From positions 496,001 to 560,000 of the forward strand of contig NZ_VUKD01000001.1 in assembly GCF_009193155.1 (NCBI RefSeq): 64,000 nt of DNA, read 5' to 3'. A model generated the notes under the pieces. It had not been told where the DNA came from. It made no database searches and saw only the letters and a program-made list of their open reading frames with translations. The translations under genes and the position numbers were made by a program. The first letter of the stretch is position 1. Every line of letters begins with the position of its first letter. This stretch comes from Georgenia subflava. GTDB taxonomy: Bacteria; Actinomycetota; Actinomycetes; Actinomycetales; Actinomycetaceae. Shown here piece by piece: positions 1,375 through 28,690 of this stretch.

Positions 1375-1402
1375 ATATCGGCCCGGGCGCTGGGGATGTG
1401 AG
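1375..1402 (-). promoter_or_regulatory. Sigma-28-like promoter of cheA
   Basis: On the minus strand the element is CTCAC, 15 nt, then GCCGATAT. The -10 half nearly equals the FliA/WhiG consensus GCCGATAA. It lies between the csrA stop and the cheA start, giving a leader of about 45-50 nt. Four other units in this island have the same architecture. Confidence 0.75.
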
Positions 1403-1415
1403 AGGTCCGGCGGTA

Positions 1416-1661
1416 CTACCGCTCCGGCTCGCGCGGTGCGGTGAGCGCGCGCAGGGCCGCGACGGCGTCGTCGTCGACGGCGGCAGCGGCCTCCCGGTTG
1501 GCCTCCTCGACGGCCTGGCGGACCTCGGCACGGTTGACGCTGACGCTGCGCGGGGCGTCGATCCCCAGCCGGACGGTGTCGTTGCGCACGTCGACGACGG
1601 TGAGCACGATGTCGTCGCCGATGACGATCTGCTCGCCCACTCGTCTGCTCAGCACCAGCAC
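1416..1661 (-). CDS. csrA: Translational regulator CsrA
   Basis: Small homodimeric RNA-binding protein that blocks translation by binding GGA in hairpin loops near ribosome binding sites. It is 81 aa; family members are usually 60-75 aa. The N-terminus MLVLSRRVGEQIVIGDDI is canonical, and RLGIDAPRSVSVNRAEV carries the conserved RNA-binding segment. The C-terminus has an extra Ala/Asp-rich tail. The start is GTG; the GAGGAG upstream is about 14 nt away, further than usual. It follows the flhF-like gene after 73 bp, at the end of the flbD-motA operon. Its usual antagonist FliW is encoded about 30 kb away. Several flagellar leaders here carry CsrA-type hairpins. Confidence 0.95.
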   Translation of the reverse strand: MLVLSRRVGEQIVIGDDIVLTVVDVRNDTVRLGIDAPRSVSVNRAEVRQAVEEANREAAAAVDDDAVAALRALTAPREPER

Positions 1662-1734
1662 GGCGTCGACACTATCTCCTCGGGGCGGCTGGGCACAGGC
1701 GGCGCCCGGCGCACGGAGGACGCGGCGGCCGGGC

Positions 1735-3015
1735 CTACTGGTCCGGGCCCGGCTCGTCCGCCCGGGCGAGGGCCTCCTGGAGCAGCGCCGCCCACAGCAC
1801 CGGGGTTGCCACGAGCCCGTCGAGCCAGCCGACCCCAGGCCCCAGGCCCAGCAGGTCTCCGGGCCGGTGAGCCCGCCAGGTGTGCTGGCCGGCGATGGCG
1901 TCGACGCGCGGCACGGGGAGCTCGGCGAGCTGGGCGGCCAGCTCGCCCGGCGAGCGTCGTGCGTCCAGCGCGGCCCAGATCTGGTCCGGGGCCAGCGCGG
2001 CCAGGACGTTCTCCACGAGCCGACGCTCGGTCCCGGCCGAGCGGGTGTCGGCGAGGACCAGCAGGACCTCGTCTGCGCTGTCCGCCCGAAGGCGGGCCGA
2101 CCGGCGCGGGCTGCTCAGCCGCGCGTCGCTGCCCGGCAGCGCGCTCTCGGCACCGACCGAGACCAGCTTGAAGGGGTGCTCGCGCAGCCGGATCAACAGC
2201 TGCGCAGCTGTCTCGAGGACCTCTTCCGCCCCACCGACGACGGCGACGACGCGGCCCGGCCGCAGCATCGGGCGCGGCGGGCGGGGCAGCCGCGCGCTCA
2301 GCGCCAGGAGCGCCTCGAGCGGGTCCCGGCCGAGCCGGGCGGCGGTGGGGAGGAGCCGTCCCGGCACGCCGAGGTCGTGCAGCCGCTCGACGGCCGAGCC
2401 GTGCGCGGCGACGGCCGGTCGGGCGGTGCCGGCGGTCCGGGCCCCAGCCGTGGCAGCGGTCCCGACGGCGGCCGGACCAGGGCGGGCCGCCCCGTCCGAT
2501 CGTGCACCGGCTCCGGTCCCGTCCGCACCGGCCGACTTCCGCCCAGCGGCGGCGACGGCGTCCGGTGCCGCCGACGTCGTCCCACGGCCCGGCGTGTTCG
2601 CCCGCGCCTCGACACCCGGCTCGGCGCTCGCGTGGCGCACCGGTGCCCAGCTGGGCGCGGCCACCGCCTCGCCGACGCCGTCGCCCGCCTCGGCGGCGGC
2701 GAGCAGCGCCGCCAGGCCGGCCGCACCGGCGCCGGACGCTCCTCCAGGCCCGGGCCGCGCCGCGCCGCCAGCCCCGGCACCGGCCCCCGCTGCGCCGGCC
2801 GGCCGACCACCGCGCGGCGTGGCTGCCGGTCCGGCACCCCCGGCCCCACCGGCGTCGTCGGCGACCTCGACGGTCACCTCGTAGCGGTTCTTGGCGAAGG
2901 GGCCGACGCCGCGCCGGACCCGTTCCGCGCGCTGGACGCGGCCGCCGAGCTCGCGCGCCCGGGCCAGGAGCGGGTCGAGCTCGTCGCCGTCAAGCAGCAA
3001 TAGCGTGTCCGACAC
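1735..3015 (-). CDS. FlhF-like protein with degenerate nucleotide-binding site
   Basis: Occupies the flhF position directly after flhA and overlaps its end by 26 bp. GTG start with GGAG 6 nt upstream; 426 aa. The N-terminus resembles FlhF (VRRGVGPFAKNRYEVTVEV), then comes a long Ala/Gly/Pro linker (about residues 55-210). The C-terminal half looks like an SRP-type GTPase fold: VVAVVGGAEEVLETAAQLL sits where FlhF has its GxxGxGKTTT loop, and VLLVLADTRSAGTERRL where DTAGR is expected. The Lys-Thr/Ser of the P-loop is missing, so GTP hydrolysis is unlikely. FlhF normally sets flagellar number and position with FlhG; no flhG is visible. Assignment rests on position and fold-like patterns. Confidence 0.7.
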   Translation of the reverse strand: MSDTLLLLDGDELDPLLARARELGGRVQRAERVRRGVGPFAKNRYEVTVEVADDAGGAGGAGPAATPRGGRPAGAAGAGAGAGGAARPGPGGASGAGAAGLAALLAAAEAGDGVGEAVAAPSWAPVRHASAEPGVEARANTPGRGTTSAAPDAVAAAGRKSAGADGTGAGARSDGAARPGPAAVGTAATAGARTAGTARPAVAAHGSAVERLHDLGVPGRLLPTAARLGRDPLEALLALSARLPRPPRPMLRPGRVVAVVGGAEEVLETAAQLLIRLREHPFKLVSVGAESALPGSDARLSSPRRSARLRADSADEVLLVLADTRSAGTERRLVENVLAALAPDQIWAALDARRSPGELAAQLAELPVPRVDAIAGQHTWRAHRPGDLLGLGPGVGWLDGLVATPVLWAALLQEALARADEPGPDQ

Positions 3016-5047
3016 CGACCACTCCGACCGTCTCGATGGTCAACGAGGTGCCCGAGACCTCGCTGTAGGAGAGCACCGCCAGGTGCGCGACGGCGAGCAC
3101 CGTGATGCGGCGCAGCGCCGGGCGGATCGCCGGAGCGCACACGAGCACCACCTGCTTACCACCGGCCTCGGCCGCCTGCACCTGGGCGCGCACCGACTCG
3201 AGCAGGCTCTCGACCCGGTCCGGGGACAGCGAGAGCTGGGTGCCCGCGTCGCCGGGACGCAGCGCCTCGAGGAGGATCTGCTCGGTGGCCGGGTCGATGG
3301 TCAGCACGCGCAGCACCCGGTCGGTGGCGTTGCGGTCGACGATGGTCTCCCCCAGCGCCACCCGGGCGGCCTCGACCAGCCCCTCGGGGTCGGTGGCGAC
3401 CTTGGCCCGCAGGCTGAGCGCCTCGTAGATGCGGCCGAGGTCGAGGATGGGCACCTGCTCGGCGAGCAGCCCCTGCAGCACCCGCTGGACCTCCCCCAGC
3501 CCGAGCATGCCGGGCACGAGCTCCTCGACCACCGACGGGTTGTGCTGCTTCAGCCCCTCGTTGAGGACCCGGACGTCCTCGCGCCCCAGCAGGCGAGGCG
3601 CGTGCTGGTTCACGATCGAGGACAGGTGGGTGATGACCACGGACGTCCGGTCGACCACGGTGGCGCCGGCCATCTCGGCGCTGTGCCGCAGCTCGGCCGG
3701 GATCCACTTGCCGGGCAGCCCGAAGACGGGCTCGTGCACGAGCGTGCCGGGCAGGTTGTCCAGCCCGTCGCCCAGCGCCAGCATCCGCCCCGCCGGCGCC
3801 TGGCCCCGCCCGACCTCGACGCCGGACATCTTGACCGAGTACGTGGCGGTGGGCAGGTCGAGCGAGTCGCGGGTGCGCACCGGCGGGAGCACGAACCCCA
3901 TCTCCAGGGCGGTCTTGCGGCGCAGCGCCCGCACCCGGGCGAGCAGGTCCTGGTCGGCCGAGCCGCCGACGAGGTCCACCAGGTCGGGCGCCAGGAGGAT
4001 CTCCAGGGCGTGGACCTGCATCTGCTCGAGGAGCTGCTCGGTGGTCTCGGGCGCCGGTGCCAGGGCGGTGCCTGCGGCCTCGGTCTGCTCCGCCGTCGCC
4101 TCCTGCTTCTCCTTGGCGCCGACCCGTTGGGCGAGGAGGAGCAGGATCGCGCCGACGACGATGAACGGCAGCTTCGGGATGCCCGGGATGATCGCCATCA
4201 CGACGGCGGCCCCGCCGGCGATGGTCAGGGCGTTGCGGGACTGCAGCAGCTGAGCGGAGGCCGCCGAGCCCATGTCCGCCTCCGCCGTCGCCCGGGTCAC
4301 GACCAGGCCGGTGGCGACCGACATCAGCAGGGCGGGGATCTGGGTGACCAGGCCGTCACCGACGGTGAGGATCGCGTAGGTCTCGATCGACTCGGTGGCG
4401 CTCATGCCGTGCTGGAGCATGCCGATGATGAAGCCGCCGACGAGGTTGATGATCGTGATGACCACACCGGCGATGGCGTCACCCTTGACGAACTTCGACG
4501 CACCGTCCATCGCGCCGTGGAAGTCGGCCTCGGCGGCCACCTCCGCGCGGCGGCGCCGGGCCTCGTGCTCGTCGATGAGACCGGCGTTGAGGTCGGCGTC
4601 GATGGCCATCTGCTTGCCGGGCATCGCGTCGAGCGTGAAGCGGGCGCTGACCTCGGCGGCCCGGCCGGCGCCGTTGGTGATCACCGCGAACTGGATGACC
4701 ACCAGGATCATGAAGATCACCAGGCCGATGACCAGCGAGCCGCCGACCACGAAGTGCCCGAACGCGTTGATGACCTCTCCGGCGTAGGCGTCGCGCAGCA
4801 CCAGCCGGGTGGAGGCCACGTTGAGCCCGAGCCGGAAGAGCGTGGCGATGAGCACCAGCGAGGGGAAGATCGAGAACTCGAGCGGCTTCTTGATGTACAT
4901 CGTGGTGAGCAGCACGAGCACGGAGACGGTGATGTTGACCGCGATGAGGACGTCGAGGAGCCCGGCCGGCAGCGGGACGACCAGCATCATGACGATGGCC
5001 ACGACGCCGACGGGCGCGAGGGCCTGGGCCAGCTTCTTGTTCTTCAC
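2990..5047 (-). CDS. flhA: Flagellar export gate protein FlhA
   Basis: Major export-gate component of the flagellar type III secretion system; its cytoplasmic ring docks chaperone-substrate complexes. The 685-aa length is typical. The first ~310 residues are membrane segments with the FHIPEP-type core (ARFTLDAMPGKQMAIDADL, and VKGDAIAGVVITIINLVGG). The cytoplasmic domain follows (from ~350), ending in VLVCAPAIRPALRRI and a short tail. The GTG start overlaps the flhB stop as GTGA. An in-frame upstream extension exists but would overlap most of the flhB 3' half and has no FlhA-like sequence. Confidence 0.97.
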   Translation of the reverse strand: MKNKKLAQALAPVGVVAIVMMLVVPLPAGLLDVLIAVNITVSVLVLLTTMYIKKPLEFSIFPSLVLIATLFRLGLNVASTRLVLRDAYAGEVINAFGHFVVGGSLVIGLVIFMILVVIQFAVITNGAGRAAEVSARFTLDAMPGKQMAIDADLNAGLIDEHEARRRRAEVAAEADFHGAMDGASKFVKGDAIAGVVITIINLVGGFIIGMLQHGMSATESIETYAILTVGDGLVTQIPALLMSVATGLVVTRATAEADMGSAASAQLLQSRNALTIAGGAAVVMAIIPGIPKLPFIVVGAILLLLAQRVGAKEKQEATAEQTEAAGTALAPAPETTEQLLEQMQVHALEILLAPDLVDLVGGSADQDLLARVRALRRKTALEMGFVLPPVRTRDSLDLPTATYSVKMSGVEVGRGQAPAGRMLALGDGLDNLPGTLVHEPVFGLPGKWIPAELRHSAEMAGATVVDRTSVVITHLSSIVNQHAPRLLGREDVRVLNEGLKQHNPSVVEELVPGMLGLGEVQRVLQGLLAEQVPILDLGRIYEALSLRAKVATDPEGLVEAARVALGETIVDRNATDRVLRVLTIDPATEQILLEALRPGDAGTQLSLSPDRVESLLESVRAQVQAAEAGGKQVVLVCAPAIRPALRRITVLAVAHLAVLSYSEVSGTSLTIETVGVVGVGHAIAA

Positions 5048-6144
5048 TGCCGGGCCTTTCCTGGGGGCGGGACGCGGTGGGTGCCGGCGGCGGCGCCGCG
5101 GCGGCGCAGGGACATCACGAAGGCGAGCACCCGGGCGACGGCCTCGTACAGGTGCTCGGGCACCTCGTGGCCGATCTCGCAGGCGGCGTTGAGGGTGCGG
5201 GCGAGCGTGATGTCCTGCACGACCGTGACGTGGTGCTCGGCGGCCCGCTCGCGGATCTTGGCGGCGATGTGGCCCTGGCCCTTGGCGACGACCCGGGGGG
5301 CGCCCTCGCCGGGCTGGTAGCGCAGGGCGACGGCCACGTGGGTGGGGTTGACGACGACGACGTCGGCGTCGGCCACCGCGGCCATCATGCGGTTGCGTGA
5401 CATGGCGAGCTGCAGGGCGCGGCGCTGGCCCTTGACGTGCGGGTCGCCCTCGGAGGACTTGTTCTCCTCCTTGACCTCTTGCCTCGACATCCGGGTCTGC
5501 TTGCGGTTGCGGCGGATCACCACGACGACGTCGAGGACGGCGAGCGCGAGCCCGGCCACGACCGCCCAGATGAACAGGCTGGCGACCCGGTCGCCCACCT
5601 CGCCGATCACCTGGCTCAGCGAGACGGTGCCCGAGCGCAGCACGAGGGGGACCATGCCGGCGATGGCGAGGTAGAGCACGGCGCCGACGACGAGCGTCTT
5701 GAGCAGCGCCTTGGCGCCCTGCCACCAGGCCTGCGGGCCGAGGATGCGCTTGAGGCCCTTGACCAGGTTGAAGTTGGTGAACTTGGGCTTGAGCCTCTTC
5801 CCGGAGACGTGCACCCCGCCCTGGGCGGCCGAGCCGATGATCGCGGCGAGCGCGGCGGCGGCGAGCACGGGCACGAGGGTGAGCAGGACCGAGCCGAGGC
5901 CGTCGGAGAGGGCCTGGACCGCCGTCGCCGTCTCGGGGGCCTCGACGACGTTGCGCACCTGGTGGACCTGCTCGCGCCCGGCGTCGGCCGCGGCGGAGAT
6001 CGCCGCGGGCAGCGCGAGCGCCGCGGCGCCGACGACGAGCCAGGCGGAGAGGTCCTGGGAGCGGCCGAGGCCGCCCTCGTCGCGCACCTTCTTCATGCGC
6101 TGCGGGGTGGCCTGCTCCGTCTTCTCCTGCGCGGAGGAGCTCAT
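5044..6144 (-). CDS. flhB: Flagellar export switch protein FlhB
   Basis: Controls the switch from hook to filament substrates by self-cleavage. It is 366 aa. It starts with the hydrophilic KTEQATPQRMKKVRDEGG, followed by four membrane segments to about residue 215. The cleavage site NPTHVAVALRY (cut between Asn and Pro) is intact. The cytoplasmic tail ends in a Pro/Arg-rich extension. It overlaps fliR by ATGA and flhA by GTGA. Confidence 0.97.
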   Translation of the reverse strand: MSSSAQEKTEQATPQRMKKVRDEGGLGRSQDLSAWLVVGAAALALPAAISAAADAGREQVHQVRNVVEAPETATAVQALSDGLGSVLLTLVPVLAAAALAAIIGSAAQGGVHVSGKRLKPKFTNFNLVKGLKRILGPQAWWQGAKALLKTLVVGAVLYLAIAGMVPLVLRSGTVSLSQVIGEVGDRVASLFIWAVVAGLALAVLDVVVVIRRNRKQTRMSRQEVKEENKSSEGDPHVKGQRRALQLAMSRNRMMAAVADADVVVVNPTHVAVALRYQPGEGAPRVVAKGQGHIAAKIRERAAEHHVTVVQDITLARTLNAACEIGHEVPEHLYEAVARVLAFVMSLRRRGAAAGTHRVPPPGKARQ

Positions 6145-6887
6145 CCGGTCACCTCCACGACCGAGCCGAGCGCCTGCTCGGCGAGCCAGGTGACCACCCG
6201 CGGCAGCGCGAGCAGCGCGACGGTGCCGAGCACCAGGGTGATGAGGATCTTCAGCGGGAAGCCGAGCGCGAACGCGTTGAGCGCCGGGGCGACGCGGGTG
6301 AGCAGACCGAGCCCGACGTCGGCGAGGAAGAGGACGGCGATGAGCGGGCCGGCGACCTGGAGCGCGGCGAGGAACATCTGGGTCAGCGCGTCCGTCATGC
6401 TCGAGGCGAGCCGGCCGAGGTCCAGGCTGGCGCCCAGCGGGAGGGCCGCGAAGGTGCGGGCCAGCCCGCCGACGACCAGCTGGTAGCCGTCGGAGACGAA
6501 GAGGAGCACCGTCGCCGCGAAGGTGTACAGCTTGGCGAAGGGGCCGCCGGAGGTCATCAGCATCGGGTCGAAGGCCACGCCCATCTCGAAGCCGCCGAAG
6601 ACGTCGATGAGCCGACCGGCGGACTGGACGGCGGCGAAGATGATCATCACCAGCAGGGCGAGGCCTCCGCCGATGACGGCCTCGGAGATCAGCTGCCCGA
6701 GGAACGCGGCGGTGCCCAGCCCGCCCTCGGCGAGGTCCGGCTGCAGCGCCAGGGCGAGGCCGACGCCGAGCATCGCCTTGACCGGTCCGGGGACGCCGCC
6801 GTGCGAGAACGGCGGGGCCAGGACGAGGAAGACCGTCACCCGGACCGCGGCCAGGACCAGTGGCTCGAGGTCGCTCACGAGGTCCAT
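6141..6887 (-). CDS. fliR: Flagellar export apparatus protein FliR
   Basis: Membrane component of the FliP5-FliQ4-FliR1 export channel. At 248 aa it is slightly short for the family. Six hydrophobic segments are visible, with the typical VFLVLAPPFSHGGVPGPVK near the N-terminus and GFPLKILITLVLGTVAL near the C-terminus. The start codon overlaps the fliQ stop (TGATG). Confidence 0.95.
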   Translation of the reverse strand: MDLVSDLEPLVLAAVRVTVFLVLAPPFSHGGVPGPVKAMLGVGLALALQPDLAEGGLGTAAFLGQLISEAVIGGGLALLVMIIFAAVQSAGRLIDVFGGFEMGVAFDPMLMTSGGPFAKLYTFAATVLLFVSDGYQLVVGGLARTFAALPLGASLDLGRLASSMTDALTQMFLAALQVAGPLIAVLFLADVGLGLLTRVAPALNAFALGFPLKILITLVLGTVALLALPRVVTWLAEQALGSVVEVTG

Positions 6888-7159
6888 CAGCCGGCCAAGA
6901 GCTGGGGTATGCGGTCGAAGAGGGCGTGGGTGGTCATGACGAGCTCGGACATCATCCAGTTCCCGGCCAGCATCAGGGCGACGCCGACCGCGACCGCCTT
7001 GGGCACGAAGCTGAGCGTGATCTCCTGGATCTGGGTGACGGACTGGAGCAGCGAGACGGCGAAGCCGACCACCAGGGCGGTGACGAGGATCGGCATCGCG
7101 AGCTTCGCGGCGAGCTCGAGACCCATGGCCCCGATGTCGAGGACGGCGGTGGTGTCCAT
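6887..7159 (-). CDS. fliQ: Flagellar export apparatus protein FliQ
   Basis: 90-aa two-helix membrane protein of the export channel. The characteristic SLLQSVTQIQEITLSFVPK motif lies between helices. It overlaps fliP and fliR by one base each (TGATG), implying coupled translation that would help fix FliP/Q/R stoichiometry. Confidence 0.96.
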   Translation of the reverse strand: MDTTAVLDIGAMGLELAAKLAMPILVTALVVGFAVSLLQSVTQIQEITLSFVPKAVAVGVALMLAGNWMMSELVMTTHALFDRIPQLLAG

Positions 7160-8723: not shown

Positions 8724-9412
8724 TAGCCCAATATCTCCGTGGCGGGCACGATCTCGCTGACGCGGACGGCGTACTCGTCGTCGACGACGACGACCTCGCC
8801 CCGGGCGATCAGTCGCCCGTTGACCATGATGTCGGCGGGGCTGCCGGCGGCGCGGTCCAGCTCGAGCACCGAGCCCGGGGTGAGCCCGAGGACTTCGCGG
8901 ACGGGCAGCCGGGTGCGACCGATCTCGGTGGTCAGGGTCATCTCGACGTCGTAGAGCACCCGCATGCTCGCCGGGGAGCTGGCGGGGGCCGCGGTGCCGT
9001 TGCTGCTGAGCGCCGGACGCTCGCGCAGCCCGAACCACGCCTGGACGACGCCCTGGGCCTCCAGTGCGTGCACGACGACGTCGGCGCCGGTGAGGACCTC
9101 GGCGACGGGGCGGGTCGCGGCGGCGCCGAGCACCCCGGGACCGAGAGCCTTGGCGGCGGCTTCCAGGGCGGGACGCAGCGCCTCGGCCAGGGACAGGTTG
9201 CCCACGGCCATCGCCTCGGTGACCGCCTGCTGCGCGACGACGACGAGCTCGGCGCTGGTCTGCCCCACGAAGCTGGCGACGACGGCGACGCCGTCTCCGG
9301 CAGGACGCTCGCCGGGCCCGGCCGGGCGGGCCGCGAGCGGCACGGTGGAGGGCAGCAGGCCGGCCAGCGCCTCGGCGGCACGCAGCCCGGTGGTGGAGGC
9401 GGTCGGGTTCAT
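8723..9412 (-). CDS. fliN: Flagellar motor switch protein FliN
   Basis: C-ring protein. The C-terminal SpoA domain (about residues 150-229) shows the classical VEMTLTTEIGRTRLPVREVL, then GSVLELDRAAGSPADIMVNG and IARGEVVVVDDEYAVRVSEI. The N-terminal ~130 residues resemble the CheC-like/FliY-type extension found in Gram-positive FliN/FliY proteins, but no clear CheC phosphatase motif was recognised. It overlaps fliM by ATGA. Confidence 0.94.
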   Translation of the reverse strand: MNPTASTTGLRAAEALAGLLPSTVPLAARPAGPGERPAGDGVAVVASFVGQTSAELVVVAQQAVTEAMAVGNLSLAEALRPALEAAAKALGPGVLGAAATRPVAEVLTGADVVVHALEAQGVVQAWFGLRERPALSSNGTAAPASSPASMRVLYDVEMTLTTEIGRTRLPVREVLGLTPGSVLELDRAAGSPADIMVNGRLIARGEVVVVDDEYAVRVSEIVPATEILG

Positions 9413-10326
9413 GAGTTCTCCTTGACGTGGACGACCAGGCCGGCCAGACGGGACCCGTGCGTGCCGGCGGCAGCCTGGGCGAGGACGCGCTTGCCGACCA
9501 CCACGTCGAGCGGCTGGGCGGCAGGGTGGTGCAGGGGCAGCAGGTCCCCGACGGCGAGCTGCACGACCTCGCGCGGGTGGACGGTGACGGGCCGGAAGCG
9601 CACGCTGACGTCGACCGGCACCTCCTGCACGGCGACCGCGAGCAGGTCCTTCTGGGTCGCCTCCTGGGCGAGCTCCTCGGCCGTGCGGGTCTCGTGGTGC
9701 TCGCCGTCGCGCAGGGCGGTGATGAGCCCCTCGGCGGGGATCATGACGGTGGCCGGAACGGCCTGGCCCTCGACCTGCAGCTCGAAGCGCGCGGTGATCA
9801 CCGGCGTGGAGGCCTCGGCCGCCTGGATGAACTGCGGCGTGTACTGGATGTTCCGCAGCTCGGCGTCCAGGGGGAGGATGCCGGCGAAGGAGTAGTTCAG
9901 GTCCGTCAGGGTGCGCCGGAGCAGCTCGCGGATGAGCTGCTGCTCGATCTCGGTGAGCTCACGCTCGGCCACCGCGCCCGGGTTGCCGGGTCCGCCGAGC
10001 ATCTGGTCGACCCAGATCAGCGCGGAGTCGAGCGGGAACTGGACGACGGCGGTGCGCCGGCCGGGCTCGACGGTGCAGACCACCATGGTCGTGGTGGTGG
10101 GCAGCGAGGCGATGTACTCGTCGTAGGAGCGCATCTCCACGCCGGTCACGCTGGCCTGGACGCTCACGCGCAGGCGCGCGACGAGCTGGTTGGCCCAGTG
10201 CCGCGCGAAGGTGCCGAACGCCATCTCCAGCAGGCGCGCGTGCTCCCGGGCCAGCGTCATGGGTCGCCGGAAGTCGTAGGCCGCCGGACCCTTGCCGGCG
10301 GCGGGCACGCTGGATCGGACCGTCAC
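9409..10326 (-). CDS. fliM: Flagellar motor switch protein FliM
   Basis: C-ring protein linking CheY-P binding to rotor reversal. 305 aa. The FliM core begins with YDFRRPMTLAREHARLLEM and includes the conserved LDSALIWVDQMLGGPGNPG. A SpoA domain occupies the C-terminus. The usual N-terminal CheY-binding peptide (LSQxEIDALL) is not evident before the YDF segment, which is worth noting. The GTG start has only a weak ribosome binding site. Confidence 0.94.
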   Translation of the reverse strand: MTVRSSVPAAGKGPAAYDFRRPMTLAREHARLLEMAFGTFARHWANQLVARLRVSVQASVTGVEMRSYDEYIASLPTTTTMVVCTVEPGRRTAVVQFPLDSALIWVDQMLGGPGNPGAVAERELTEIEQQLIRELLRRTLTDLNYSFAGILPLDAELRNIQYTPQFIQAAEASTPVITARFELQVEGQAVPATVMIPAEGLITALRDGEHHETRTAEELAQEATQKDLLAVAVQEVPVDVSVRFRPVTVHPREVVQLAVGDLLPLHHPAAQPLDVVVGKRVLAQAAAGTHGSRLAGLVVHVKENS

Positions 10327-10386
10327 ACCTGGCTCATCGGCCGGTGTGCGGTCGTCTTGAGGGAAACGGGAGGTGGAGTCAGGTCC

Positions 10387-10884: not shown

Positions 10885-10907
10885 CTCAGAGAACCTCCAC
10901 GTCCATG

Positions 10908-12517: not shown

Positions 12518-12790
12518 CTACTCTCCCCGGTGTCGGGTCGGCAGCGGAACCACGTCGCCGGTCCCGCGGGGCGGGGCGGTCTCTGACGTCGCCGGGCGGC
12601 GGAGGGAGCGGGCGACGACGGCGGCCCGGTGCTCCTCGATGAGGCGGACGACCTCGTCCATCGGCTCGTTCACGATGTACTTGGTGCCGTCGAGCAGCAC
12701 CAGGATCGTGTCCGGTGTCGCTTCGATCCGCTCGATCAGGTCAGGGTTGATCGCGAACGGCTGGCCGTTGAGGCGCCTCACGATGATCAC
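12518..12790 (-). CDS. flbD: FlbD/SwrD-family protein
   Basis: Small protein usually found just before motA; B. subtilis SwrD increases stator torque. 90 aa. The conserved part is IIVRRLNGQPFAINPDLIER and ILVLLDGTKYIVNEPMDEVV; the C-terminal 25 residues are low-complexity. GTG start. AGGA about 10 nt upstream is the likely ribosome binding site and sits within a predicted GGA-loop hairpin. First gene of the long flbD-to-csrA unit. Confidence 0.92.
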   Translation of the reverse strand: MIIVRRLNGQPFAINPDLIERIEATPDTILVLLDGTKYIVNEPMDEVVRLIEEHRAAVVARSLRRPATSETAPPRGTGDVVPLPTRHRGE

Positions 12791-12793: not shown

Positions 12794-12855
12794 GGTTCCA
12801 TCCTGTTAAACCGGGGCCCATCCATGAGCCCCGGCAGGCCCTTCCATGAGCCTGC
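12794..12855 (-). promoter_or_regulatory. Three GGA-loop hairpins in the flbD leader (candidate CsrA sites)
   Basis: Read on the minus strand, 5' to 3'. Hairpin 12834-12855 has stem GCAGGC/GCCTGC and loop TCATGGAAGG. Hairpin 12811-12834 has stem CCGGGGC/GCCCCGG and loop TCATGGATGG. Hairpin 12794-12812 has stem GGTT/AACC and loop TAACAGGATGG. All show GGA in the loop, and the last contains ACAGGATG, essentially the CsrA consensus core, over the presumed ribosome binding site. The first two share a near-identical loop. CsrA binding is inferred. Confidence 0.7.
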
Positions 12856-12863: not shown

Positions 12864-12891
12864 AGATCGGCCGGGACCGTCCGGTGATGAG
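12864..12891 (-). promoter_or_regulatory. Sigma-28-like promoter of the flbD-motA-...-csrA unit
   Basis: CTCAT, 15 nt, GCCGATCT on the minus strand. The -10 half and flanking AG are identical to those of the fliC promoter. Predicted transcription start is about 65 nt before flbD, leaving room for the three leader hairpins. Confidence 0.72.
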
Positions 12892-22238: not shown

Positions 22239-22564
22239 CAGGCCTGCATCCGCATGATCTCGTTGAAGGCGTCGACCGCCTTGTTGCGGATCGCGGCGGT
22301 CAGCTCGAGGGCGACGGCGGCCTCGGTGGAGGCGATGGTGTAGTCGTGCACGTCGGCGAGGTCACCGGTGACGGCCCGGATGCCGAGCTCGGTCTTGGCC
22401 TGCTGCGCGGCGGACAGCCCGTCAACGGCCGCGGCGAGGGACGCACCGAAGGAGGCTCCGCCGTCGGACGAGCGCGGTGCGCCCGGCTCGAGGATGTCGG
22501 CGAGGGACGTGGTCGGCGCCGTGGGAACGGTGGGGAGGATGCCCCCGATGGAGGGTACGGACAT
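22238..22564 (-). CDS. fliE: Flagellar hook-basal body protein FliE
   Basis: Small rod adaptor between the MS ring and rod. 108 aa. The family C-terminus AAVALELTAAIRNKAVDAF followed by NEIMRMQ is intact. The N-terminus is a variable Pro/Thr-rich segment. One-base overlaps with flgC and fliF keep it in the coupled flgB-flgC-fliE-fliF series. Confidence 0.95.
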   Translation of the reverse strand: MSVPSIGGILPTVPTAPTTSLADILEPGAPRSSDGGASFGASLAAAVDGLSAAQQAKTELGIRAVTGDLADVHDYTIASTEAAVALELTAAIRNKAVDAFNEIMRMQA

Positions 22565-22965
22565 CAGTTCTTCCCGATCTGCAGGGCGGCGGTGTAGGAC
22601 TCCTTGGCGCGGTCCACCACGGCGGCGTTCGCCTGGTAGCCGCGCTGGGCCATGATCAGCTGCGTCATCTGGGAGGCCATGTCGATGTCCGGGTAGCGCA
22701 CGTACCCGTCCTCGTCGGCGAGCGGGTGGTCCGGCTCGTGGACCAGGCGGCCCTCGGCGTCGCCGAGCTCGATGCCGGCCACCTGCACGCCGGCGGGCTC
22801 GCCGTACTCGACGCTCTGCGCGACCACGTAGCGGGCCTGGAACGCGTCGTCGGTGGTGGCGCTGACGGTGGACATGTTCGCGAGGTTGTCGCTGACGGCG
22901 TCGAGCCACTTCCGGCTGACGGTCATGCCGGTGCCGGCGATGCCGATCGCGTCGAACGTGGGCAT
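22564..22965 (-). CDS. flgC: Flagellar rod protein FlgC
   Basis: Proximal rod subunit. 133 aa. N-terminal FDAIGIAGTGMTVSRKWLDA, with the rod-protein SDNLANM segment, and C-terminal YPDIDMASQMTQLIMAQRGY, then QANAAVVDRAKESY. Translationally coupled to flgB and fliE. Confidence 0.95.
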   Translation of the reverse strand: MPTFDAIGIAGTGMTVSRKWLDAVSDNLANMSTVSATTDDAFQARYVVAQSVEYGEPAGVQVAGIELGDAEGRLVHEPDHPLADEDGYVRYPDIDMASQMTQLIMAQRGYQANAAVVDRAKESYTAALQIGKN

Positions 22966-23306
22966 CAGCTGGTCCTCATCGCCGTGCGGATGGCGCTGAA
23001 GGAGCCGTCGACCGAGCGGATGGCCAGCTGGTACCGCAGGTTCGTGTCGACGTTGGACAGCGTCTCGGTGTCGAGGTTGACGTTGTTGCCGTCCGGACGG
23101 GTGGGCTCGAGCGAGCGCTCGACGGTGCCGCGGACCGAGCCGTCACCGCGCTCGACGGCGGCCGCGAGCTCGTCCTCGAAGGAGACCCGGCCGGCGAGGA
23201 AACCCGGGGTCTGGGCGTTGGCGATGTTGTCGGCGATGACACGCTGGCGCAGCGAGAGCGCGTCGAGCGCACTCCTCATGGCCACCGATCCCACGGAGTC
23301 GAACAC
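22965..23306 (-). CDS. flgB: Flagellar rod protein FlgB
   Basis: Proximal rod subunit and first gene of the hook-basal-body unit. 113 aa with RQRVIADNIANAQTPGFLAG. GTG is chosen because FlgB proteins usually begin near FDSV..., and GGGG lies about 7-8 nt upstream. A longer reading frame would swallow the leader hairpins. Confidence 0.92.
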   Translation of the reverse strand: MFDSVGSVAMRSALDALSLRQRVIADNIANAQTPGFLAGRVSFEDELAAAVERGDGSVRGTVERSLEPTRPDGNNVNLDTETLSNVDTNLRYQLAIRSVDGSFSAIRTAMRTS

Positions 23307-23337
23307 GGCAGAGCCCCATCTGTGACGCGGGTGTGTC

Positions 23338-23375
23338 GGCCGATCCATGGCCTGCTCGGTGAGCGATCCGTGCTC
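23338..23375 (-). promoter_or_regulatory. Two GGA-loop hairpins in the flgB leader (candidate CsrA sites)
   Basis: On the minus strand, 23361-23375 folds as GAGC, loop ACGGATC, GCTC. 23338-23352 folds as GGCC, loop ATGGATC, GGCC. Stems are only 4 bp, but both loops expose the same NGGATC core as the fliC and flbD sites. The second hairpin lies about 30 nt before the start codon. CsrA binding is inferred. Confidence 0.55.
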
Positions 23376-23383
23376 GCCCTCAA

Positions 23384-23411
23384 CGATCGGCAGGCCCGAG
23401 AAGGTGTTGAG
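23384..23411 (-). promoter_or_regulatory. Sigma-28-like promoter of the flgB unit
   Basis: CTCAA, 15 nt, GCCGATCG on the minus strand, about 75 nt before flgB. The spacing matches the other four promoters exactly. It would place rod, hook and export-ATPase genes under the same sigma factor as flagellin. Confidence 0.68.
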
Positions 23412-23417
23412 AGGTTT

Positions 23418-23435
23418 ATGGGGAGTTCTCCCCAT
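23418..23435. promoter_or_regulatory. 18-bp palindrome abutting the flgB promoter
   Basis: ATGGGGAGTTCTCCCCAT: two 8-bp arms around TT, starting 7 bp upstream of the -35 half of the flgB promoter. The symmetry and position suggest a dimeric regulator site. A 16/18 match occurs at 63140-63157. The binding protein is unknown. Confidence 0.5.
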
Positions 23436-23604
23436 CCAGTCCGGTGGCGCCTCTGCCGCCGTGGTGGTAAAGCCGCCGTCGACCTGGTGCCGGGCCGTTG
23501 TCCGGGGCAGGCGCCCGGCCCACCGTCGGGTCGGTGCCGGCGCCGACGTCGGGCCGGTGTCTGGGGTACGCCGTCGGGGCGCGCTGGGTTACTCGACGTC
23601 CACG

Positions 23605-24111
23605 TCAGCCTGCCATGTCGACGTAGACGGGACGGGCGGGGCCGTTGGCGCGCATGGCCTGGACGGCCCGGGCCTGGCGACGGCCCATGCTCGCGGCCTC
23701 GGTGACCTGCCGGGCGACCTCGAGCTGTCGCGCGAGCAGCTCCTCGGCGCGGGTGCGCAGGGCGGCAGGCAGGGGGCCGAGTCCGCCGGGCGGCGTCCAC
23801 GGGTCACGGCCGGCCGGGACGTGGTCGCCGGTGAGCGACCGCTCGGCCTCGTCCACGTCGACCTCGAGCGCGGTCAGCGCGGCAACCCAGCGCTCGTGGA
23901 ACAGGTCGTCAGAGGCGGGGCCGCTCGTCGCCGGTCGGGAAGTCACAGAGCCGGCCGGGGCGGGGCGGCTCGTGGTCGGAAGAGGTGTCACGGAATCAGC
24001 CGGGGCGGGTGCGGCTGCCGGTGCGTCGATGCCGTTCCCGGCGGTGGACCGGGCAGGACCGTCCGACGTCTGATCGTCGACGGCGGGACGTCCCGCCGTG
24101 TCAGGCGACAC
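23605..24111 (-). CDS. Unknown protein following fliS (possible flagellar chaperone position)
   Basis: 168 aa, GTG start with GGGGAG 4 nt upstream, overlapping the fliS stop by 11 bp. The first ~65 residues are Pro/Ala/Thr low-complexity. The rest is helical (ERWVAALTALEVDVDEAERS, then RTRAEELLARQLEVARQVTE) and ends in Arg/Ala-rich sequence. FliT often follows fliS, and a short helical protein would fit, but no clear FliT similarity was recognised. The last gene of fliD-fliS-orf. Confidence 0.7.
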   Translation of the reverse strand: MSPDTAGRPAVDDQTSDGPARSTAGNGIDAPAAAPAPADSVTPLPTTSRPAPAGSVTSRPATSGPASDDLFHERWVAALTALEVDVDEAERSLTGDHVPAGRDPWTPPGGLGPLPAALRTRAEELLARQLEVARQVTEAASMGRRQARAVQAMRANGPARPVYVDMAG

Positions 24112-24568
24112 CGAGCTCCCCGATCCGCCGGTCCGTGGCCGCGTCGGCCGCCCGCGGCGCGGCGGCAGGAGCCGCTGGGACCGCGGCGCCGTTCGCCGTC
24201 GTCGAGGCGGCAGCCTCGTGCCAGGCGTCGCGCAGCGGGATCAGCAGGTCGCGGCAGGCGGTGACGCGGGCGGCGTCGCGGGCGATGTTCGCGCTGACCA
24301 GCTCGACGAAGATGTAGTTGTACAGGTCCATCAGCCCGCGGGCGCCGTCCCAGGCGTCGAGGTCCAGGCTGGCGCGCAGCTCGTGGATGATGTCCTGGGC
24401 GTGGTTGAGGTGGGTGTTGACGGCGGCCCGGTCGTCGGCCGCGATGGCGGCGATCCCCCGGTCGAGGTCGAGGACCAGCCGGTCGTAGAGCATGGTCAGG
24501 AGCTTGGCGGGCGTGGCGGTGGCGACGGCCTCGGCGCGGAAGCGGTTGAGCAGAGCGGCCTGGTTCAT
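24101..24568 (-). CDS. fliS: Flagellin chaperone FliS
   Basis: Binds the C-terminus of flagellin before export; in B. subtilis it also cooperates with FliW. 155 aa. The family core is TPAKLLTMLYDRLVLDLDRG and LMDLYNYIFVELVSANIARD. The C-terminal 25 residues are an Ala-rich extension. ATG start 8 nt after the fliD stop. Confidence 0.94.
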   Translation of the reverse strand: MNQAALLNRFRAEAVATATPAKLLTMLYDRLVLDLDRGIAAIAADDRAAVNTHLNHAQDIIHELRASLDLDAWDGARGLMDLYNYIFVELVSANIARDAARVTACRDLLIPLRDAWHEAAASTTANGAAVPAAPAAAPRAADAATDRRIGELGVA

Positions 24569-24576
24569 GGTGACCC

Positions 24577-26022
24577 CTAGTCCTTCGTGTTCCACTGCGG
24601 CAGGCCCGAGAGCTGGCTGGTGAGCCAGTCGGACTGCGACTGCAGCTGAGAGAGGGTGACCTCGAGCTGGGCGTACGTGCGCTCGAGGCCGATGCGGCGG
24701 GTGGCGAGGCGGTTGTCCCACTCGGCGATCTGCGCGCCGAGGTCCTTGACCCGCCCCTCCTGCGAGGTGAGCTGGAGGCTGAGCGTGCCGTCGATCGGGT
24801 CCGAGGCGCCGTCCGCGACGTCGGCGACGCGCTGGGCGATGGCGGCGACGAGGGCCTGCGTGCCCTCGGGATCGGCGGCGAGCGCGGCGGCGAAGGCCTC
24901 CTCGTCGAAGGTGAGCTCGCCGGAGCGCTCGAGGGTGATGCCGACCTCGGCGGGCGAACGCCCGTCCACCGGCATGGAGATCGCCGAGCGGACCTGGTCC
25001 GAGAGACCGCGCACGGCGCTGTTGCCCGAGAGGATGCCGCCGGTGACGACCTCGCGGCCGTCGTCCGAGGTGGAGGTCGTGGCACTGGTGCGCGAGGCGA
25101 TCTCGGCGAGCACGAGGTTCACGTTGTTGATGAGTCCGGAGACCATCTTGGTGGACGCGGCGTCGTCGCGCTCCACGGTGAGCGTGACCGGCTCGTCCCC
25201 CTCGGCGGCGACCTCGCTGACGGTGAAGCTGACGCCCGGCAGGACCTCGGCGAAGCTGTTGGTGCCGCTGGTGAGGGTGATGTACTCCTCGCCCTCGGCG
25301 AGGGTCGCGTCCGGCCAGAGGGTGATCTGGGCGTCCTGCGCCTTGACGGCTGCGGTGGTGCTGTCGACGAGGCGGGCCGCGCCGGCGGAGCCCAGGTCGT
25401 TGCCGTCGGAGTCGATGTGGCCGTTGGCGACGGCGTCGCCGGCGTACACCTCGAACGCGTTGGACTCGCCGGTCACGCCGGAGAGCTGGAGCCGGTACTC
25501 GGGCTCCCCGCCGTCGACGGCGTTGCCGACGCGGACGGCGACGGCGCTGAGGCCGAGGTCCTTGACCTTGTTGATGGCCTCCGCCATCTCGGTGGCGGAG
25601 CTGCCGGTCGCCTCGATGGTGAAGATCTCGCCGCCGCGCACCACCGTCAGGGTGGGGGGCGTGCCGAGGTCGACGCCGGGTGCGGCCAGGTTCGTCATCG
25701 AGACCTGGCCGGTGGCGAGCCGGTCGACCTTGAGCTGGAGCGTGGAGGGCTGGGCGCCGGTGCCCGCCGTGGCGGTGACGGAGTCCGCGGACGAGGTGAC
25801 GGTCTGCTTGGTCCAGGACTCGGCCGAGGCGGCGTCCGTGGCCGAGGTGGCGAGGGAGGCGACCTTGGTGTTGAGCGCCTGCAGGGCGTTGACGATCCGC
25901 GACGCCTCGGAGGACTTGTTCTTCAGGAGGGTCTGCGGGGCGGCCTCGAGCTGCATGAGGCTGTTGATCAGGCTGGTGGTGTCCAGGCCGCTGATCAGGC
26001 CGTCGATGGCCAGGCTCGACAT
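24577..26022 (-). CDS. fliD: Flagellar filament cap protein FliD
   Basis: Caps the filament and promotes flagellin polymerisation. 481 aa. The N-terminal D0 segment is AIDGLISGLDTTSLINSLMQ; the C-terminal coiled coil includes LGAQIAEWDNRLATRRIGLE, followed by a YAQLEVTLSQLQSQS segment. No sigma-28-like promoter was found in the 116 bp between fliC and fliD, so it probably depends on read-through or an unrecognised promoter. Confidence 0.94.
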   Translation of the reverse strand: MSSLAIDGLISGLDTTSLINSLMQLEAAPQTLLKNKSSEASRIVNALQALNTKVASLATSATDAASAESWTKQTVTSSADSVTATAGTGAQPSTLQLKVDRLATGQVSMTNLAAPGVDLGTPPTLTVVRGGEIFTIEATGSSATEMAEAINKVKDLGLSAVAVRVGNAVDGGEPEYRLQLSGVTGESNAFEVYAGDAVANGHIDSDGNDLGSAGAARLVDSTTAAVKAQDAQITLWPDATLAEGEEYITLTSGTNSFAEVLPGVSFTVSEVAAEGDEPVTLTVERDDAASTKMVSGLINNVNLVLAEIASRTSATTSTSDDGREVVTGGILSGNSAVRGLSDQVRSAISMPVDGRSPAEVGITLERSGELTFDEEAFAAALAADPEGTQALVAAIAQRVADVADGASDPIDGTLSLQLTSQEGRVKDLGAQIAEWDNRLATRRIGLERTYAQLEVTLSQLQSQSDWLTSQLSGLPQWNTKD

Positions 26023-26058
26023 CGGTCCGCCTTCCGTGGTGGGGATGGTCCTGCTTGT

Positions 26059-26098
26059 GCGGCCGGCGGCCTGTCCGGGTGGACAGGCCGCCGGTCGC
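26059..26098 (-). terminator. Terminator between fliC and fliD
   Basis: 18-bp stem with a single G-T pair around loop GGGT (arms 26059-26076 and 26081-26098), starting about 40 nt after the fliC stop. No T-run. Partial read-through would give the usual excess of flagellin over cap protein. Confidence 0.8.
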
Positions 26099-26138
26099 GA
26101 TCATGCTCCGTGCGCTACCGGGCTGCGCCCGGCGATGA

Positions 26139-27278
26139 TCACTGCAGGAGCTGGAGGATGCCCTGCGGGATCTGGTTGGCCTGGGCGAGCATCGCGGTGC
26201 CGGCCTGGGACAGGATCTGCGAGCGGGTGAAGCTCGCCATCTCCTGAGCCATGTCGGTGTCACGGATGCGGGACTCCGAGGCGGACAGGTTCTCGATCGA
26301 CACGTTGAGGCTGTTGATCGTGTGGTCGAGGCGGTTCTGCTTGGCACCGAGGTCTGCACGCACGTCCGAGACGGTCTGGATGGCGGCGTCGAGGACGCCG
26401 ATAGCCGCCTCGCCGCCGGAGGTGCCCGAGTCCGCAGCGTAGGTCGCCGTGAGCCCGGCGATGGTGACGTCGGTCTCGGCTGCGCCGCTGGGACCAGTGA
26501 TCGTGACGCCGCCGAACTCGTCGACCTTGGCGCTGAGCTGCGTACCCGACAGCTGACGGTCGAACGCCTGCTGCGTCAGAGCGTGGTTCTTTGCCGCATC
26601 GGTGGACGTGCCGCCGGTCGCCCACCCGGTCAGGTCGATCTCGTGCGTGGAGCCGTTGTGAGCAATCGTGATCGCGGTGGCGGGCGCGGTCGCGGCAGCG
26701 AAGTCGACCGAACCGGGGCCGGCGGTCCAGGTCGCCGAACCGGACTCGACGTCGATGGCGTCGACACCGAGACCCGCAGCGCTCATCGACTGCGTCACGT
26801 CCACGTCGATCTTCTCGCCGGCGTTGGCCCCCACCTGGAAGGTGCCGCTGTAGGTGCCGTCGAGGAGGTTGGTCCCGTTGAACTGGGTGGTGTCCGCGAT
26901 CCGGGTCAGCTCGGCCTTGAGCTCGTCGAGCTCGGTCTGGATGTTGCCCTTGGCGTCGGCGCTCAGACCACCGGTGTTGGCGGCCTGGACGGACAGGTCA
27001 CGCATCCGCTGGAGGATGGCGTGCGTCTCGGTGAGCGCACCCTCAGCGGTCTGGACGACGGAGATGCCGTCCTGGGCGTTGCGGACGGCCACCTGGAGAC
27101 CGCCGACCTGCGAGCGCAGGCCCTCGGAGATGGCCAGGCCGGCGGCGTCGTCGGCCGCGCGGTTGATGCGGAAACCGCTGGAGAGCTTCTCCAGGGAGGA
27201 GCTCAGGTCGTTCTGGGTGGAGGCGAGGTTGCGGTACGCGTTCGTCGCCGCGATGTTGTTGTTGACAGAGAATGCCAT
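26139..27278 (-). CDS. fliC: Flagellin
   Basis: Filament subunit. 379 aa. The N-terminal D0/D1 begins FSVNNNIAATNAYRNLASTQ, and the LQRMRDLSVQAANTG segment matches the D1 region. The C-terminal D1/D0 is NSLNVSIENLSASESRIRDT, then MLAQANQIPQGILQLLQ. A short variable D2 lies at about residues 170-285. Monocistronic between a sigma-28-like promoter and a terminator. The leader carries two GGA hairpins, like the CsrA-controlled hag leader of B. subtilis. Confidence 0.97.
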   Translation of the reverse strand: MAFSVNNNIAATNAYRNLASTQNDLSSSLEKLSSGFRINRAADDAAGLAISEGLRSQVGGLQVAVRNAQDGISVVQTAEGALTETHAILQRMRDLSVQAANTGGLSADAKGNIQTELDELKAELTRIADTTQFNGTNLLDGTYSGTFQVGANAGEKIDVDVTQSMSAAGLGVDAIDVESGSATWTAGPGSVDFAAATAPATAITIAHNGSTHEIDLTGWATGGTSTDAAKNHALTQQAFDRQLSGTQLSAKVDEFGGVTITGPSGAAETDVTIAGLTATYAADSGTSGGEAAIGVLDAAIQTVSDVRADLGAKQNRLDHTINSLNVSIENLSASESRIRDTDMAQEMASFTRSQILSQAGTAMLAQANQIPQGILQLLQ

Positions 27279-27284
27279 GGCTCT

Positions 27285-27327
27285 TCTTCTTCCTGAAGAC
27301 GGTTCTTGAAACAGCCCATCCGTGGGC
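27285..27327 (-). promoter_or_regulatory. Two GGA-loop hairpins in the fliC leader (candidate CsrA sites)
   Basis: On the minus strand, the 5' hairpin (27314-27327) is GCCC, loop ACGGAT, GGGC. The 3' hairpin (27285-27299) is TCTTC, loop AGGAA, GAAGA; its AGGA is the best ribosome-binding candidate, 12 nt before ATG. B. subtilis hag has the same layout: one upstream CsrA site and one over the Shine-Dalgarno. Binding here is inferred. Confidence 0.72.
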
Positions 27328-27338
27328 AGTCACCGGCT

Positions 27339-27366
27339 AGATCGGCCGGGAACCAGGAAGTGTGAG
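27339..27366 (-). promoter_or_regulatory. Sigma-28-like promoter of fliC
   Basis: CTCAC, 15 nt, GCCGATCT on the minus strand, directly followed by AG as in the flbD promoter. It lies 18 bp past the end of the sigma-factor gene and gives a leader of roughly 55 nt. Confidence 0.78.
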
Positions 27367-27383
27367 GAGTTTGGCGAAGGTTT

Positions 27384-28253
27384 TCAGACGGCGTCGGCGA
27401 CCAGCGACGGACGCTCGGCACGAACGCGCGACTCCGCGCTCCGTGACGCCGCACCGGCGGCCCGCTCGGCCACCGCTGCGTAGTAGGCCTGCCGACGGCG
27501 CTCGGCCACACCGGGCGCCGGTGCCGGCGCCGGCGCCAGCTCGGGGGCGAGGGAGGAGTTGATGCCGTCCTTGAGCATGCTGAGCGCCTGAGAGCGCAGC
27601 TGGCTGATCCGGGACTGCGTGACGCCCAGCTCCGCCGCGAGCTCGACGACCGGCCGGTCGTGGAAGAACAGCTCCTCCACCACCTGGCGCAGCCGATCCG
27701 GCAGCTCGACCACCGCGGCGGCGAGGTAGTGCAGCTTCTCGTCGACGAGCAGCCGCTCCTCCGGGCCGAGCGCGTCGCTGCTGAGGGTGCCGGCGACGTT
27801 CGAGTCGTCAGCCTCCAGGGAGAGCACCCGACGCTCGGCGTCGCCGCGGATCGCCTCGACCTCGGCCGCGTCGATGTCCATCGCGGCCGCGAGCTCCTCA
27901 CGGGTGGGCTTCCGGCCGAGTGCGGCAGTGAGGCTGTCCGAGGTCGCGGTCAGCTGACGGGCACGCTGCCGCGCGCCGCGGGAGGCCCAGTCCATCCCGC
28001 GCAACTCGTCGACGATCGCACCGCGGACCCGCACGGCCGCGTACCGGCCGAACGGGACCCCGAGCTCGGGGTCGAAGGCGCGGGCGGCCTGCACCAGGGC
28101 GAGCGACCCGGCCGCCGCCAGCTCGTCGCGCTGCACATGAGCGGGGACGCGACGGATCATCTCGCTCACGTGGTAGCCCACCACGGGGAGGTGCTCGACG
28201 ATGAGTTGGTCCTGCTCGGCGAGCTCGTCCTGCTCGGTGCGGCGGATCGTCAC
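27384..28253 (-). CDS. fliA: FliA/WhiG-family flagellar sigma factor
   Basis: Directs RNA polymerase to sigma-28 promoters. 289 aa. Region 2 spans GSLALVQAARAFDPELGVPF with YAAVRVRGAIVDELRGMDWA, typical of this family. Region 3 has LGRKPTREELAAAMDIDAAE; region 4 has the helix-turn-helix VVELAAELGVTQSRISQLRS. A ~50-residue Ala/Arg-rich C-terminal extension is unusual. GTG start with GGAG 8 nt upstream. It lies just upstream of fliC and would read the five promoters listed here. No flgM anti-sigma gene was found. Confidence 0.93.
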   Translation of the reverse strand: MTIRRTEQDELAEQDQLIVEHLPVVGYHVSEMIRRVPAHVQRDELAAAGSLALVQAARAFDPELGVPFGRYAAVRVRGAIVDELRGMDWASRGARQRARQLTATSDSLTAALGRKPTREELAAAMDIDAAEVEAIRGDAERRVLSLEADDSNVAGTLSSDALGPEERLLVDEKLHYLAAAVVELPDRLRQVVEELFFHDRPVVELAAELGVTQSRISQLRSQALSMLKDGINSSLAPELAPAPAPAPGVAERRRQAYYAAVAERAAGAASRSAESRVRAERPSLVADAV

Positions 28254-28662
28254 GTGTCAGGCTCCATCGAGAAGTCCGCGCGGGTCTGACCCGAACATGG
28301 ACTGGCGGTCAACAACAACAGTGCCCGAACCGGGATGTCCGAAAATACGGGACACCACGTCGTCACGGATCTCGCCGTCCCCCGAGGGCCATGATCTTCA
28401 GACAAGCGGACGATCCCATACCGCAAAGGTCTACGGCAAGCATCTCGAGCAAGAATGTTGCGCGCATCACACGAGATTCGACTCAACTCCACCGCTCGGA
28501 TACCGAATGTTTACGTTCTCAGAGTCATTTCGATGAGGTACTGGGCGGGGCAGGTCCGACGACGCCGGCACGGCATCTCGTGCGGGGCCGGCGACCAGCG
28601 GGCGGGCGCCGGTACGCGTACGCCGTCGCCCGCGGCGTAGCCTGAACCGACCGGCAGTTCCT
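28254..28662. other. Divergent intergenic region between fliA and flgN
   Basis: About 410 bp with lower GC than its neighbours in places (for example AT-richer stretches near 28391-28530). No convincing gene was found on either strand and no sigma-28-like element faces fliA, so the fliA promoter remains unidentified. The region ends at the flgN promoter. Confidence 0.6.
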
Positions 28663-28690
28663 CTCACAACGGCCGATTCCTGGTCGATGA
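28663..28690 (+). promoter_or_regulatory. Sigma-28-like promoter of flgN-flgK-flgL-fliW
   Basis: CTCAC, 15 nt, GTCGATGA. The -10 half differs from GCCGATAA at two positions. A nearer GCCGATT (28672-28678) lacks a -35 half at the right distance and was not chosen. flgN starts about 43 nt downstream of the -10 element. Confidence 0.62.

Follow-up and report, generated by a model that had tools for sequence, protein, structure and literature searches.

A flagellar and chemotaxis gene cluster lies in a 64,000-nt stretch of the Georgenia subflava genome (contig NZ_VUKD01000001.1; the whole stretch is called the window here), and the same short two-part element stands in front of several of its transcription units. 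What reads this element, and how far does the set of genes behind it extend? The first-pass annotation had described five copies, CTCAN-N15-GYCGAT, before cheA, flbD, flgB, fliC and flgN, and took them for a sigma-28-like regulon of five promoters. All five are present on the strands given there and share one spacing, and the five gene labels are backed by Pfam; the count, however, was one short, as a sixth cluster promoter before fliM had been overlooked. The sites are very probably FliA (sigma-28) promoters of a Georgenia-type actinobacterium, a reading supported by a fliA gene within the cluster and by conserved footprints in relatives at all five of the promoters originally named.

The repeated element and its conservation

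Scanning the window with CTCA-N16-G[CT]CGAT, which is equivalent to CTCAN-N15-GYCGAT, gave eight exact matches in 64 kb. Six are the cluster sites listed below, all with a spacer of 16, and their -10 half is GCCGAT in five cases and GTCGAT at flgN. The other two are a match at 4401-4426 (plus strand), antisense inside flhA, and one at 60655-60680 (minus strand) within an ORF at about 60.7 kb. Footprints in relatives were counted with this strict pattern and with a loose one, [ACGT]TCA-N16-[ACGT][CT]CGA[TA], each applied over a set range of distances.

PcheA, 1377-1402, minus strand: CTCA-N16-GCCGAT in the csrA/cheA gap; 6/6 relatives (loose and strict), 50-58 nt ahead of cheA
PfliM, 10336-10361, minus strand: in the fliL-fliM gap, the -10 ending 9 nt from the fliM GTG; loose pattern in 5/7 relatives, strict in 3/7
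PflbD, 12866-12891, minus strand: kept in 6/7 relatives (loose and strict)
PflgB, 23386-23411, minus strand: kept in 16/18 relatives (loose and strict)
PfliC, 27341-27366, minus strand: loose pattern in 20/20 relatives, strict in 13/20
PflgN, 28663-28688, plus strand: GTCGAT form; loose pattern in 23/28 relatives, strict in 8/28
fliM, 9409-10326, minus strand: GTG start, label checked with Pfam
flbD, 12518-12790, minus strand: heads the motor/export unit
flgB, 22965-23306, minus strand: heads the basal-body/hook unit
fliC, 26139-27278, minus strand: flagellin (Pfam)
flgN, 28727-29215, plus strand: Pfam-supported label

In Georgenia, Actinotalea, Cellulomonas and their relatives the same genes are preceded by this element at an unchanged spacing, and every counted match at a promoter position has a spacer of 16. 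These relatives come from a scan of genome contigs with FliA, which returned 62 loci, 40 of them actinobacterial (L011-L048, L055 and L069) and including relatives in Georgenia, Oceanitalea, Actinotalea, Cellulomonas, Demequina, Quadrisphaera, Nocardioides and Actinoplanes. Twelve of the 40 hold fliA alone by the queries used and were unusable for promoters, and eight regions from genus, family and order mates were added to the footprint set (two further regions duplicate the fliA side). The counts exclude an flgL-like match in L011 as well as four second matches to flgN in L013-L016. Five organisms were judged to appear under two locus names (L012/L285, L011/L287, L014/L289, L018/L288 and L027/L290), so that the species behind the counts of different genes are not independent.

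Among the site variants in relatives, GTCA is frequent at flgN, and TCCGAT or ACCGAT is found at some fliC sites. In a set of 44 sites, A is conserved 4 and 5 nt ahead of CTCA (37/44 and 30/44), while an AA trailing GCCGAT is not conserved. Strict matches with other spacers were few: two at N19 and two at N20 before flgB, one at N17 and one at N18 before fliD, and one at N13 before fliA. The loose pattern occurred at N13 in five fliC and two flbD regions, where it probably picks up the nested TCA of CTCATCA, and in one flgN region each at N15 and N20. No spacer-16 match was found upstream of fliF (18 regions), flgK (26), fliW (25) or fliA (39); autoregulation of fliA through the motif was rejected on this count, as was a separate fliD promoter, for which a spacer-16 match is present in 2/20 regions.

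The fliM promoter sits inside the flbD-export unit. In the window, as in the genus mates L285-L287, 9 nt separate the end of its element from the GTG, which places the expected transcription start at or adjoining the start codon, and the fliM mRNA is probably leaderless.

Classical sigma-28 promoters have a spacer of N15, and in that register the -35 of all six sites reads TCAn with a C in front, and not TAAA. The spacer between the TAAA equivalent and GCCGAT is about 15, and GCCGAT is the -10 expected. The first-pass annotation, which set CTCA against TAAA, was right that the -35 is altered, but its register was off by one: cTAAA-N15 corresponds to cTCAn-N15. One core base is thus changed (A to C) and the fourth is relaxed (A 4, C 21, G 7, T 12; n=44). 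The flagellar consensus quoted in PMC8325347 is TAAA ... GCCGATAA.

Several observations weigh against sigma-28 promoters, the first being this departure of the -35 from TAAA. The loose pattern is absent in some relatives (flgB 2/18, flgN 5/28, flbD 1/7, fliM 2/7), and it was derived from the window before being scored in relatives that are not independent of one another. With a matrix built from relatives the six cluster sites score 14.3 to 27.4; PflgN is the lowest (14.3) and falls inside the range of background matches (-2.9 to 17.6 for 23 of the 27 matches outside the window), so that its support rests on conservation. Lastly, the bare motif is close to background genome-wide. The genome (4.32 Mb in 11 contigs) has 35 exact matches, 8 in the window and 27 elsewhere; the five FliA-bearing members of the genus, this one included, have 35, 33, 35, 26 and 44, and counts of 23, 20, 26 and 33 were obtained for four genus mates in which FliA has no match. 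Because the latter carry comparable numbers, the bare pattern is weak evidence at this scale. The genome-wide search proposed in the first-pass annotation gave no support for a regulon past the flagellar/chemotaxis cluster, and a genome-wide regulon was rejected, since exact matches elsewhere in the genome come close in number to the background set by the FliA-less genus mates. A reversed-pattern control (11 matches in this genome) was discarded as too lenient; it understates the background, as the FliA-less genomes exceed its count. The sole match to a methyl-accepting chemotaxis protein (MCP) in the genome is located in the adjoining chemotaxis cluster.

It is very unlikely that the motif is the operator of another DNA-binding regulator and not a sigma-28 promoter. 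An operator would accommodate a -35 half that departs from TAAA, and the conserved A 4 and 5 nt before CTCA could belong to a longer protein site, but the -10 half is the flagellar GCCGAT at a spacing that fits sigma-28, and the sites are directional, lie near start codons and have fliA in the same cluster. Chance matches in GC-rich DNA, noticed owing to the flagellar genes nearby, can be all but dismissed: the bare pattern does occur 20-33 times in FliA-less genus mates, but the footprints stand at the same places in relatives with a fixed spacer (shuffled regions gave 0 to 0.14 matching regions), and with those genus mates as background about 0.39 matches are expected per 64 kb (P(≥8) = 9e-9).

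FliA and its recognition helix

If the sites are FliA promoters, the factor reading them would be the product of the fliA gene located between fliC and flgN, which is the only match to FliA in this genome at E<=1e-12.

fliA, 27384-28253, minus strand: flagellar sigma factor of 289 aa, with Pfam sigma-70 regions 2, 3 and 4
fliA codons 212-225, 27579-27620, minus strand: recognition helix TQSRISQLRSQALS, with Arg220 at the classical His position (alignment)

The nearest FliA proteins are from Georgenia, and the closest solved relatives are 6pfv/6pfj (named RNA polymerase sigma factor) and FliA chains; we take 6pfv/6pfj to be WhiG. The window protein also has a roughly 60-residue Ala-rich C-terminal tail past region 4 (27384-27569), beyond the aligned part of the solved chains.

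In the mechanism we propose, FliA region 4 would read the cTCAn -35 and regions 2-3 the GCCGAT -10, 15 bases apart and in the classical register, and the six promoters together would account for the transcription of most, if not all, of the cluster. PflgB would serve the basal body and hook; PflbD the motor and export genes, with PfliM internal to that unit; PfliC flagellin, and probably fliD behind it; PflgN the hook-associated proteins and FliW; and PcheA chemotaxis. With six FliA promoters on early and late units, a single sigma factor would cover both classes. Binding and transcription by FliA, the start points and the operon extents are predictions from sequence, as is the leaderless fliM mRNA.

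The recognition helix contains SQLR in the window FliA and SQ[IL]H in the solved chains shown, and the same residue divides the 62 loci, being Arg in 40/40 actinobacterial and His in 22/22 other loci. A change from His to Arg may have caused the -35 shift from TAAA to TCAn, in that Arg would recognize the G paired with the new C, a possible cause that we regard as doubtful. Besides the division among the 62 loci, His is present in the solved 6pfv/6pfj (presumably WhiG) and in FliA 9wsf. The WhiG promoters of Rubrobacter and Streptomyces, as presented in PMC8325347, have a TAAA -35.

A survey of the phylum bears on both sides of this question. It covered 396 genomes, with flagellin in 54, flagellin regions from 52 and a sequence set of 90 sigma relatives (30 + 60); an Arg-type sigma factor often occurs alongside a His-type paralog in the same genome. 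Seventeen genomes have a main-group Arg-type member, and seven of these carry CTCA or TTCA with GCCGA[AT] before flagellin, but eight have no readable promoter (a count that leaves out G235) and the Arg-type G165 yields just a weak match of TTAA type whose -10 is mismatched. G265 has His-type members only and yet carries CTCAA-N15-GCCGAT before flagellin, and five further His-only genomes (G125, G127, G255, G326 and G428) have weaker TCA-type candidates that differ in spacer, distance or -10. G158, with His and Gln sigma members, has a CTAAA promoter. In a quickly built tree of 142 rows (68 with Arg and 74 with His; seven rows with another or no residue were left out), the Arg/His label needs two changes and 63 of the 68 Arg rows lie on one side of one branch, which together bring the contrast close to one event. 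A strict rule tying His or Arg to the promoter type is weakened by G265, by the five weaker His-only cases and by this near-single origin, and the coupling of residue and promoter is best treated as a hypothesis based on nearly one event.

A different arrangement was seen at flagellin in seven genomes of low-GC actinobacteria (the f38 group: L122, L132, L133, L139, L147, L149 and L151), where a G[CTG]AGAAA box stands 12 nt before GNCGATA. Neither TAAA nor CTCA fits these promoters; all seven genomes have a His-type sigma factor, and four also have a second, Arg-type one.

FlgM, CsrA and the leader hairpins

FlgM was not found in any of the 39 genomes searched, while it was detected in three control genomes; the search is informative in 16 of the 39 only, as just these have a FliA match. 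Later actinobacterial classes are described as being without FlgM in PMC10746217. CsrA and FliW are both encoded in the flagellar cluster, and AnGGA hairpins are predicted in the fliC, flgB and flbD leaders.

csrA, 1416-1661, minus strand: just upstream of PcheA, on the strand of the flbD-export genes
fliW, 31644-32054, plus strand: follows flgN-flgK and a gene resembling flagellin (flgL)
27314-27327, minus strand: GCCCACGGATGGGC hairpin in the fliC leader, CsrA-like site 1; A and GGA invariant in 23 aligned leaders
27285-27299, minus strand: TCTTCAGGAAGAAGA, fliC ribosome-binding site, CsrA-like site 2 (second GGA)
23361-23375, minus strand: GAGCACGGATCGCTC, possible hairpin in the flgB leader; 16/16 aligned leaders
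23338-23352, minus strand: GGCCATGGATCGGCC hairpin in the flgB leader; fully paired in 15/16 aligned leaders
12834-12855, minus strand: GCAGGCTCATGGAAGGGCCTGC hairpin in the flbD leader (leader comparison, fold)
12811-12834, minus strand: CCGGGGCTCATGGATGGGCCCCGG hairpin in the flbD leader (leader comparison, fold)

CsrA sites are given as AnGGA in hairpin loops in PMC6692469 and PMC7652899, and according to PMC4894983 the CsrA of C. jejuni binds chiefly flagellar mRNAs. The full leader pattern, a loop AnGGA followed by a GGA at the ribosome-binding site, is complete in fliC and largely so in flbD. The fliC alignment (the window, 20 relatives and two of the four readable Actinoplanes-type leaders) has GCCCAYGGANGGGC-type hairpins in which the loop A and GGA are invariant in 23/23, with the second GGA at the ribosome-binding site; two-sided changes occur at three of the six predicted pairs, and a pair is broken in at most four sequences. 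For flgB, 15 of the 18 relatives were aligned with the window, leaving out two without the site and L018, which repeats L012, and with the ends of L047 and L048 trimmed at an upstream start codon. In these 16 leaders 97.7% of cells are paired, compared with 24-39% when the stems are slid, but no covariation was seen among them, the first hairpin lies outside the lowest-energy fold of the window leader, the fold is weaker and there is no clear ribosome-site GGA. The flbD leaders of the window and of three genus mates have two hairpins each, and those of L289, L291 and L292 have one convincing hairpin each, with differing stems; L290 has none, and was left out of the alignment as it has no promoter site.

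On balance we favor, by a modest degree, a checkpoint that is post-transcriptional in the absence of FlgM, in which CsrA would bind the AnGGA hairpins of the fliC, flgB and flbD leaders and FliW would release CsrA. The missing FlgM matches, csrA and fliW inside the cluster, and hairpins conserved across 23 fliC leaders, 16 flgB leaders and the flbD leaders all point this way. Against it stand the flgB stems and fold already described, and folding z-scores are weak (flbD -2.0, fliC -0.5, flgB +0.8). AnGGA hairpins are not enriched across the whole window (21 versus 27 in shuffles), five of the 21 being in the fliC, flgB and flbD leaders. In the phylum survey, hairpins with a stem of at least 5 and AnGGA are found in 18/46 flagellin leaders and 3/46 control stretches, but in eight of the 18 the only hairpin is at the ribosome-binding site, where a GGA would be expected in any case, which leaves 10/46. 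Six of the 52 regions were unusable, control stretches shorter than 100 nt were scored as negative, and some start codons are possibly misplaced. An unrelated anti-sigma factor is another possibility.

Joining this checkpoint to the recognition helix gives a two-part code for FlgM-less actinobacteria, which we offer tentatively and think rather unlikely as a whole: a His-to-Arg FliA would act on cTCAn promoters of early and late units alike, and CsrA-FliW, through the fliC, flgB and flbD hairpins, would provide the ordering. The same joint claim, equally tentative, places csrA at the end of a unit that it would itself target, and fliW in a hairpin-free one.

An Rfam scan of the window returned two tRNAs and msiK, the latter a cis-regulatory RNA match at 45215-45273 (plus strand) with 68.3 bits (gathering threshold 33).

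Comparison with known promoters and systems

Judged by sequence, the regulon is real, conserved and mostly known in kind, and it is to be placed among the actinobacterial FliA promoters of CTCA type. It shares with classical sigma-28/SigD the -10 GCCGAT, the spacer of 15 in the TAAA register and the flagellar and chemotaxis targets, but has TCAn for TAAA, includes early basal-body and export genes besides the late ones, and no FlgM was found.

The flagellar promoters of Actinoplanes missouriensis reportedly read CTCA(N15-17)GCCGAA. Taking this consensus as a guide, the two have in common the CTCA -35, the GCCGA -10, the spacing and the use of one consensus for flagellar units; CTCA(N15-17)GCCGA (GTCGA at flgN), a cognate FliA, and early and late units are all found here. 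The first-pass annotation suggested that the -35 might be a lineage-specific form, and lineage-specific it is, but the CTCA form has reportedly been described already in A. missouriensis and is not new. The Georgenia sites differ in having a spacer of 16 throughout, a -10 ending in T, and one FliA. Three FliA-family sigma factors are described for A. missouriensis in PMC13293333. Eleven flagellin regions were available from Actinoplanes relatives, four of them with a readable ATG, and two of these four have CTCA-N16/17-GCCGA[AT] before fliC.

The solved chains that we assume to be WhiG have His in the recognition helix, where the window FliA has Arg. The WhiG promoters of Rubrobacter and Streptomyces, in the account of PMC8325347, belong to the same sigma clade and have the same -10, but differ in their TAAA and in their targets.

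By computation, the analysis adds the promoter before fliM, sixth in the cluster and with a likely leaderless mRNA, the two conserved A upstream of CTCA, the contrast between Arg and His, and putative GGA hairpins beyond fliC. The regulon offers a conserved definition of flagellar promoters, open to testing, for a phylum with apparently little promoter mapping, and a single residue is named that could explain the changed -35.

CsrA-FliW control of hag in B. subtilis (PMC7652899) and of flaA in C. jejuni (PMC4894983), as outlined in those reports, likewise involves csrA and fliW and a flagellin leader with an upstream GGA and a ribosome-site GGA; the difference is that GGA hairpins are predicted here in the flgB and flbD leaders also. 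A parallel in gene content is the motility island of Kineococcus radiotolerans (PMC2587704), which has fliA, flbD and csrA in the flagellar cluster, as here. That report noted a match of the flagellin ribosome site to the hag CsrA site and proposed CsrA control, leaving open how FliA is controlled without a FlgM homologue; the promoter motif and upstream hairpins described here are not known from that account. The present results suggest an answer to the Kineococcus question, namely how FliA-driven flagellar genes could be timed without FlgM.

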